From: Halorubellus sp. JP-L1
Lineage (GTDB): Archaea; Halobacteriota; Halobacteria; Halobacteriales; Natrialbaceae
Reading direction: 5' to 3'
Assembly (NCBI RefSeq): GCF_011440375.1
Contig: NZ_JAAOIR010000001.1
Span: 1,116,001 to 1,180,000 of the forward strand
Length of the DNA: 64,000 nt
This document shows, piece after piece, positions 31,897-32,780 of this stretch. Made by a program: the position numbers and the translations under genes. The notes under the pieces were generated by a model, which had not been told where the DNA came from, searched no databases, and saw nothing but the letters and a program-made list of their open reading frames with translations. How positions within the stretch are numbered: the stretch's first letter is position 1; each line of letters begins with the position of its first letter.

Positions 31897-31971
31897 GGGT
31901 TGGTGGTCTAGCCAGGTTATGACGGCTCCTTCACACGGAGCAGGCCGGCGGTTCGAATCCGCCCCAACCCA
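31897..31971 (+). tRNA. tRNA-Val (anticodon CAC)
   Basis: The acceptor stem GGGTTGG (31897-31903) pairs with CCAACCC (31964-31970), with discriminator A at 31971. The anticodon stem GCTCC/GGAGC encloses the loop TTCACAC, giving anticodon CAC (codon GUG). The T-arm is GGCGG-TTCGAAT-CCGCC. No intron and no encoded CCA. Confidence 0.95.
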
Positions 31972-32363
31972 CTTCTGCTTCCGCAAACCGACGAGCGTAG
32001 CGAGGAGGCTGCGGGAGCAGAATGGTTCTGTGCGGATTCGAACCCTGCCAGTCGCGCGCAGCGAACGGAGTGAGCGAGCACGTCTGGCTCTAGTTCGAAT
32101 CCGCCCCAACCCACTTCTCGCAGCACAATACGACGAGCGCTAGCGGGGAGTCTGTGCTGCGAGAAGTGTTGACGGTGCGATTCGAAACAGGGAGCGAAGC
32201 GAACGATGTGAGCGGAGTGACCGAGGTTCGAATCCGCCCGAATCCGCTTCTTCCGGCCCCGTGATGGCGGTCGAGAGCGAGGAGTCCGGGGAGCGAGGAA
32301 GTGTGAGGTGGGATTCGAATCAGGAGGGGCGCGAGTGAGTGGAGTGACTGTGGTTCGATTCCG
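31972..32363. repeat. three tandem degenerate units ending in copies of the tRNA-Val 3' end
   Basis: The 26-bp tRNA 3' end plus flank (31951-31976, GTTCGAATCC...CTTCT) recurs exactly at 32093-32118, with three mismatches at 32226-32251, and much degraded at 32353. Each unit (142, 133 and 127 bp) starts with a hairpin: 31973-31985/32010-32022, 32114-32127/32153-32166 (perfect 14 bp) and 32247-32260/32288-32301. The arms differ in sequence between units but pair in each. A second inverted repeat pairs a GATTCGAA segment with the following TTCGAATC in each unit (12-bp perfect in unit 1, 32032-32043/32093-32104). Confidence 0.9.
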
Positions 32364-32780
32364 TCCACGTTCGTGGAGCGCCGGGTGGTGGGCCGGGATT
32401 CGTCGGGCTGTGTGTGGTGAGCGGCGTGTTTGGGTTCGGTCGGGTGGGTGGGACTGTAGGTTGGTGGGGAGGTATATAGGGCAGGATCAGAGGAACGCAC
32501 ACAGTTATCAGTTGTATTACTAGTTGGTCGGTTAGACGATGTGTTGGTTTCGTTTGCGTGATATTTGGTGGCATCGCTCGACGAATGTTCGTCGAGACCT
32601 ACGCGCGTATTTTACCGTAATAGTAGGCCTCGGCGGCTTCGACAGGGGTTTTCCGAGGGTCATCGAAAGCCGCCAATGACAACGTTTGTCTATATAGGAG
32701 AATGTTTTCTCACGAGAGTGCATAGATGCCTATAGGTCTATTAGCAACCGCTTTAATCGGAATCCGTCTTCGTACGTGTA
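32364..32780. other. low-GC intergenic region with hairpins, upstream of pstS
   Basis: The G+C content falls clearly below the rest of the window. There are hairpins at 32577-32596 (CTCGACGAA/TTCGTCGAG, perfect) and 32632-32674 (GGCGGCTTCGA/TCGAAAGCCGCC, one bulge). Two related elements, CTATATAGG near 32690 and CCTATAGG near 32727, could be operators for phosphate control. A TATA-like CTTTAATC at 32750-32757 lies about 27 nt before the pstS ATG, implying a leaderless transcript. A 63-codon minus-strand frame here has no recognisable homology. Confidence 0.55.

Follow-up and report, generated by a model that had tools for sequence, protein, structure and literature searches.

The small mobile repeats (SMR-A, about 110 bp), PATEs and MITEs of Haloquadratum walsbyi are short and non-coding, have palindromic parts and a strong target preference, are inserted in a strain-specific manner and rely on an unknown or borrowed transposase (PMC3119063). 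In the consulted parts of a report on Haloferax gibbonsii LR2-5, partial tRNAs beside a full gene were interpreted as remnants (PMC7921747). Here, we describe tandem units directly behind the tRNA-Val(CAC) gene of Halorubellus sp. JP-L1, in a stretch of 64,000 nucleotides (nt) hereafter called the window (contig NZ_JAAOIR010000001.1, positions 1,116,001–1,180,000). In the four genomes sampled, tails of one to four such units stood behind about half of the tRNA genes. There is perhaps an even chance that these tails are tandem small non-coding DNA cassettes inserting at the tRNA 3' ends of Halobacteria. Related species differ in which units they have, and a core hairpin is common to different tRNAs; this suggests a DNA repeat of a kind not described before, and not an RNA switch.

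Organization of the tail units

The copied segment starts inside the tRNA gene. The 26-mer GTTCGAATCCGCCCCAACCCACTTCT (31951–31976) comprises the last 21 bases of tRNA-Val and five flanking bases, and it recurred with 26/26 matches at 32093–32118, 23/26 at 32226–32251 and 13/26 at 32353. Between consecutive copies of the tRNA 3' end (A), the order was constant: a variable hairpin (h1), an inverted T-loop copy (A', GATTCGAA) and a core hairpin (h2). The general formula is A - h1 - (A' - h2 - A - h1)n. At each of the three A' sites (32035, 32179 and 32312), GATTCGAA pairs with the next GTTCGAATC or GTTCGATTC downstream. The original prediction, made from the letters of the window alone, had claimed the repeats of the tRNA end, a second inverted repeat in every unit and a hairpin at the start of each; all were confirmed, the hairpins having 13 bp with one T.G (31973–32022), perfect pairing (from 32115) and weaker pairing (from 32247). 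In an Rfam scan, the threshold was reached by the tRNA alone and by no other described RNA family.

The window genome (G000) was compared with genomes of another species of the same genus (G001), of the same family (G011) and of the same order (G027). The first h1 hairpin was also present in the orthologous Val(CAC) tail of G001, with many two-sided changes. Successive A copies were mostly about 60–170 nt apart. While h1 varied from one tRNA to another, h2 belonged to a few class-wide types, namely type I (CAGGGAGC-stem-GCGACCGTG), type II (CCAGTCGCGCGC...GAGCACGTCTGG) and type III (GTGAGTCGCAG...CGTCTCAC); further relatives had different basal stems and a common GTCGC(A)GC...CCGTC core. The orientation of h2 was fixed (70:0 for type I and 54:1 for type II), a T.T mismatch was retained in 32 of 43 distinct h2 stems, and h2 had letters that were invariant across Halobacteria.

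The inverted copy matched its host. At the base of A' that faces position 57 of the tRNA, 157 of 173 units agreed with the host and 16 disagreed (Fisher p = 3e-31, uncorrected for relatedness). Beyond the T-loop, A' had a faint extension into the acceptor strand, with a slight but consistent excess for the host tRNA (Wilcoxon p = 5e-11 versus the other tRNAs of that genome). The inverted ends of the units (GATTYGAA...TTCRAATC) match the target tRNA and are no fixed element sequence.

One extra T-loop base was present in about a tenth of the copies (14/146). It was seen, e.g., as GTTCGATATCC for GTTCGAATCC, in both copies of the Gln(TTG) tails of both G000 and G001, and also in tRNA-end copies at L064, L065, L206 and L208. 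Another tail type, a hairpin GAGTCCC...GGGACTC with an antisense-type GNA loop, was found downstream of tRNA-Arg(CCG) (L039), tRNA-Arg(CCT) (L047) and tRNA-Ala(CGC) (L029); it directly joins a tRNA 3' end copy without T-loop.

Recurrence behind haloarchaeal tRNA genes

A BLAST search with the 413-nt window tail gave matches in 36 of 41 relatives, and the matches within the window genome sat behind tRNA genes. The stretches round 43, 44, 36 and 33 tRNA genes of G000, G001, G011 and G027 (156 in total) were then scored for downstream copies of the 3' end of the gene itself, with 16/21 matches or more and within 500 nt. Such copies were present behind 20, 20, 22 and 15 genes, respectively (77/156), compared with 0, 0, 0 and 1 (1/156) in the upstream control, and the nearest copy was often perfect (21/21). 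At looser thresholds, randomly picked other tRNAs matched the tails too, because tRNA 3' ends resemble one another. The relevant test was the comparison of the own end with the best other one: the own 3' end beat all other tRNAs of that genome in 75 of 85 informative cases.

The exact type II 40-mer was found in 17 contigs of named haloarchaea, including Halorubrum, Halogeometricum, Haloarchaeobius, Halosimplex and Halonotius, and lay behind the matching tRNA in every contig with a tRNA in range. The type I core pattern was present in 55 of 145 Halobacteria genomes, and a reversed control gave no match; the loci examined all had the core 27–302 nt behind a tRNA with a matching 3' end (30/30). 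When the pattern was shortened and sought in a sample of the whole phylum, it had a single match outside Halobacteria, and the exact pattern was essentially confined to the class. The search of other haloarchaeal genomes proposed along with the prediction thus found the units behind tRNA genes in many of them, which refutes the possibility that they are unique to the strain and due to two integrase target duplications.

A covariance model of A'-h2-A was built from 15 diverse units and run on the four whole genomes. All 98 matches were tied to tRNA genes. For 93 of them, a listed tRNA lay at most 543 nt upstream (on the same strand in 91 cases), and one further match directly behind a tRNA-Leu missing from the tRNA list raised the number within 543 nt to 94. 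For the remaining four, the tRNA with the 3' end that is copied in the match or in the junction beside it was 11, 18, 37 and 51 kb away (Table 1). On the simplest reading, a mobile element would have integrated between tRNA and tail; in the clearest cases, the element appears to have entered at the tRNA, with the entire tail left beyond it. Displaced tails may hence mark integrated islands. Palindromes derived from IS200/IS605 and repetitive extragenic palindromes (REP) were rejected as candidates, as dispersed sites are expected for them, yet 98 of 98 matches were tied to tRNA genes.

An inverted h2 behind its own tRNA was seen in two cases only, both in G027 (C1 418734–418800 and 1691687–1691763), and an inversion between A' and A would explain them. 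The same contig contained a dense cluster of about twelve low-scoring tRNA genes (2635124–2637763) that resembled the tRNA arrays of viruses or plasmids.

Table 1. Parts of the tRNA-Val(CAC) locus, in window coordinates, and positions of displaced tails in two related genomes.
Feature	Position	Strand	Description	Support
tRNA-Val(CAC)	31897–31972	+	host gene; the segment copied in the tail is its 3' end (A, from 31951)	ARAGORN, Rfam RF00005
Unit 1 h1	31973–32022	+	variable hairpin of 13 bp, including one T.G; core of the loop CGACGAGCGTAGCGAG	
Unit 1 A'	32035–32042	+	inverted tRNA T-loop copy GATTCGAA	
Unit 1 h2	32043–32092	+	type II core hairpin CCAGTCGCGCGCAGCGAACG...GAGCACGTCTGG	covariance-model match 32035–32101
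A2	32093–32118	+	tRNA-Val 3' end copy, exact, 26/26	
Unit 2 h1	32115–32168	+	perfect hairpin, starting within A2	
Unit 2 A'	32179–32186	+	GATTCGAA	
Unit 2 h2	32187–32225	+	type I core CAGGGAGC...GTGACCGAG	covariance-model match
A3	32226–32251	+	tRNA-Val 3' end copy, 23/26	
Unit 3 h1	32247–32302	+	decayed hairpin	
Unit 3 A'	32312–32319	+	GATTCGAA	
Unit 3 h2	32320–32352	+	decayed type I core TCAGGAGGGG...GTGACTGTG	
A4	32353–32373	+	faint tRNA-Val 3' end copy, 13/21	
Displaced tails	G001 C6 540161–577345 (L301, L302, L337); G011 C1 2522930–2534376 (L338); G011 C1 2067351–2085689 (L339); G011 C1 1782865–1834251		tRNAs Ala, Thr, Tyr and Phe	

Exchange, gain and loss of units

In 42 of 81 units, the nearest neighbour of h2 stood at a different tRNA within its own genome, more than in any of 500 permutations (mean 20.7, maximum 35), and in 6 of 81 it stood at the orthologous tRNA. 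For h1, the corresponding values were 29/79, which is within the permutation range, and 12/79. In G001, Val(CAC) and Ser(CGA) had an identical h2 of 51 nt, and Ile and Val(GAC) of G000 had a common h2. The Ile tail of G001 contained another h2 type than that of G000, with the rest of the tail alignable. As h2 was common to different tRNAs of one genome and was swapped at Ile, it passes between tRNA loci, with the T-loop copies as borders.

Between G000 and G001, the Val(CAC), Ile and Met tails were conserved, with two-sided stem changes, and the Gln(TTG) and Gly(GCC) tails differed by one extra unit adjoining the tRNA. Turnover was also visible at tRNA-Leu(CAA) in Halorubrum, where 23 of 48 readable loci were filled (tRNA-h1-A'-h2-A-flank) and 25 were empty (tRNA-flank), with the unit cleanly missing. 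On a tree of the upstream flank, which is a local tree with some very long branches and no species tree, the state changed 15 times, with at least 10 changes among 47 Halorubrum genomes being forced by supported branches, and the states clustered no more than shuffled labels. The incoming unit carried its own h1, unlike the resident h1, in most species. In multi-copy tails, the first A copy was better than the second in 21 cases, worse in 8 and equal in 12 (sign test p = 0.024); on average, the copies adjoining the tRNA were the best preserved. Two-unit blocks were repeated in some arrays (Gly of G011, Tyr of G027), as recombination between A copies would give.

Two further features were observed at the Leu(CAA) locus. 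A hairpin GATGCGGAAGACGCTCTCGGAGCGCTCTTCCCTCGCAAAACTT that mimics the Leu acceptor strand was kept about 20–80 nt behind the tRNA in Halorubrum and Halorubellus (L251–L300; L052, L129), with or without a preceding unit. In several Halorubrum species (G177, G185, G188 and G190), the locus was duplicated in tandem, with a second, partly decayed tRNA-Leu(CAA) and its tail a few hundred bases downstream.

Pairing in the tail helices

RNA folding of the window tail was compared with that of shuffled sequences. Scores were z = -8.0 and -6.95 for the A-h1-A' segments and z = -3.5 for the first h2 hairpin; the second h2 hairpin folded no better than shuffles (z = -0.6). Mismatches of the G-U and A-C kind were counted in the tail helices, with the acceptor and anticodon stems of tRNAs from the same genomes as the control. 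The A-C to G-U counts were 13:11 in h1, 7:9 in the h2 basal stem, 15:18 in the GNA-loop motif and 12:6 at A'/A position 57. The sum of 47:44 holds no excess of G-U over A-C, versus 2:60 in the control stems (Fisher 1e-11, the counts being not fully independent).

According to the original prediction, covariation of the hairpin arms suggested that structure is selected. The two-sided stem changes proved real, but G-U was not spared as selection on RNA pairing would have it, and units are freely gained and lost between species, so the part of the claim that concerns RNA-level selection is unsupported. The symmetry of G-U and A-C is compatible with DNA-templated pairing or young units with little time for evolution, and it lowers the likelihood of an RNA role, although the test is weaker if most units are young. 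As a caution, stem covariation without an excess of G-U does not establish RNA structure.

Several further signals were recorded. The GA/GNA loop motif occurred 191 times in sense and 50 times in antisense, the h2 basal stems had two-sided changes, and T-runs were mildly enriched in the 100 nt past the tail (23 versus a shuffle mean of 15). Depletion of T-runs inside the tails gave nothing specific as an RNA signature, because A-runs were depleted too. The motif GARCGNAGYGA was nearly absent elsewhere in the window; its orientation relative to protein genes was therefore not usable. The fixed orientation, the kept T.T mismatch and the sense-strand GA/GNA loops still need an explanation in single-stranded terms. 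Box C/D and H/ACA guide RNAs and a kink-turn, suggested by the antisense A', were rejected on visual inspection, since C/D boxes and a 3-nt bulge were missing and the complementarity was unbroken and not split in two. A tRNA-like minihelix round the A copy was rejected because the 5' T-stem strand is uncopied.

Origin of the tails

A and A' match the host tRNA, the units are placed only in tRNA tails and mostly in one orientation, they are cleanly present or absent, and h2 is shared between loci. In what we infer to be the primary event, a cassette would insert at or beside the T-loop or 3' end. The insertion would regenerate the tRNA, and the displaced old end would stay as the downstream copy, as happens with a long target duplication or an attachment (att) site. 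Short homology for passing h2 cores between tails, possibly by gene conversion or replication template switching, could then be provided by the conserved letters of the T-loop, GGTTCRAATCC, and by the inverse of this sequence. Arrays would lengthen and shorten through recombination between A copies, and abandoned units would decay. The cassettes may be selfish or neutral. It is possible, and put forward only tentatively, that they form a new class of mobile non-coding element tailored to each target, in which a haloarchaeal enzyme or replication process writes direct and inverted copies of the host 3' end round a portable DNA hairpin. If so, one core could colonise any tRNA gene without breaking it.

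Several points weigh against insertion of cassettes. Ordinary insertion accounts only for the direct copy A and leaves the match of A' to each host tRNA unexplained. No integrase or transposase was linked to the units, although no search aimed at integrases was made, and neither the type I nor the type II core was found exactly in the viral contigs searched. The fixed orientation of h2, together with its T.T mismatch and invariant letters, could mean function. Moreover, presence and absence cannot separate insertion from deletion between direct repeats, and whole-allele exchange between species contributes to the pattern.

In an RNA account, the tail would be a structured trailer co-transcribed with the tRNA, and the hairpins and the competing A:A' and A':A2 pairs would govern 3'-end maturation, termination or stability. 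The folding of A-h1-A' far beyond shuffles, the fixed sense orientation, the sense bias of the loop motif, the conserved T.T mismatch with two-sided changes in the h2 basal stems and the T-runs past the tail are as this account has it. We nevertheless regard it as unlikely: G-U and A-C are balanced in the tails as they are not in tRNA stems (an argument that weakens if the units are young), half of the tRNA genes are tail-less, one tRNA gains or loses its tail between close species, and T-runs inside the tails are not specially scarce. A selected function at the DNA level, as a decoy or spare attachment site or as a spare 3' end for the repair of tRNA genes disrupted by integration, would fit the often perfect nearest copies, the class-wide retention and the strict placement behind tRNA genes. 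However, integrating elements continue to use the tRNA itself and not a copy of its end, the copies decay, and gain and loss are unclustered on the flank tree, so that such a function appears very improbable.

Fold-back template switching at hairpins could produce direct-inverted-direct triplications (tandem inversion duplications) as a pure replication error without any element. Such switching leaves copies in the order A-A'-A, with a hairpin at each turn, and A' matches the host tRNA as it should. Yet h2 does not come from the local tRNA and is common to different tRNA genes and to different genera, and the incoming unit at Leu(CAA) brings its own h1 in most species; we give this explanation a very small chance. 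Successive conventional integrations, with the A copies as att scars of proviruses or plasmids whose bodies were deleted, are largely refuted and keep a small probability. Haloarchaeal elements usually have their att sites in tRNA 3' ends (PMC3119063; PMC7921747), elements of 11–51 kb appear integrated at tailed tRNAs, and the nearest A copies are the best preserved. Such scars do not explain the inverted copy or the uniform units of about 60–160 nt with their A-h1-A'-h2-A order, constant in all genomes; the common h2 core is missing from the viral contigs searched, and in the displaced tails that are easiest to read the element went in at the tRNA, so that the complete tail lies past it. No element body or integrase gene stands between A copies, since their spacing is too short for genes. 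The earlier judgement that nested att sites alone are insufficient was upheld.

Comparison with described systems

In integron attC arrays, inverted repeats that are short and imperfect pair by their outer arms round a GTT core, and the array grows from one end. The likeness lies in the form of the array and is an analogy only, as the present array starts in a tRNA gene and its units are too short for cassette genes. The 3' external transcribed spacers of tRNA precursors, which act as small RNAs, are directly behind the tRNA gene like the tails, which could likewise be transcribed together with it; in contrast, the tails lack the mismatch pattern of RNA. At the att sites of tyrosine integrases, the tRNA 3' end is copied from the T-loop to the last base and the gene is kept whole. 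The same holds for the tails, but these have no element body or linked integrase and do have an inverted copy and a common core hairpin. Integrative elements occur at tailed tRNA genes too, leaving the tail aside.

The partial tRNAs of Haloferax gibbonsii LR2-5 are probably the same phenomenon, and the remark on them is the nearest prior report in the literature outside subscription papers (PMC7921747, in its consulted parts). Those parts mention neither a repeated unit with an inverted copy and a hairpin core nor its spread through the class or its turnover, all of which were found here. The main landing sites of archaeal mobile DNA are tRNA genes. Host-matched tandem units at about half of them change the annotation of att remnants, partial tRNAs and tRNA flanks.

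The nearest kind comprises the short non-coding haloarchaeal repeats of the SMR-A, PATE and MITE families of Haloquadratum walsbyi (PMC3119063). Like MITE- and SMR-type repeats, the present units are short, non-coding and inserted at defined sites in a species-specific manner. SMRs and PATEs make no target duplication, whereas the present units duplicate at least 21 nt, and SMR-A targets other mobile elements, whereas the present units target tRNA 3' ends and hold an inverted copy of the target (PMC3119063). The tails offer a naturally occurring case of a single core being fitted anew to dozens of targets. We regard them as small non-coding mobile repeats of a variant type, and there is a real chance that they are a kind of their own.
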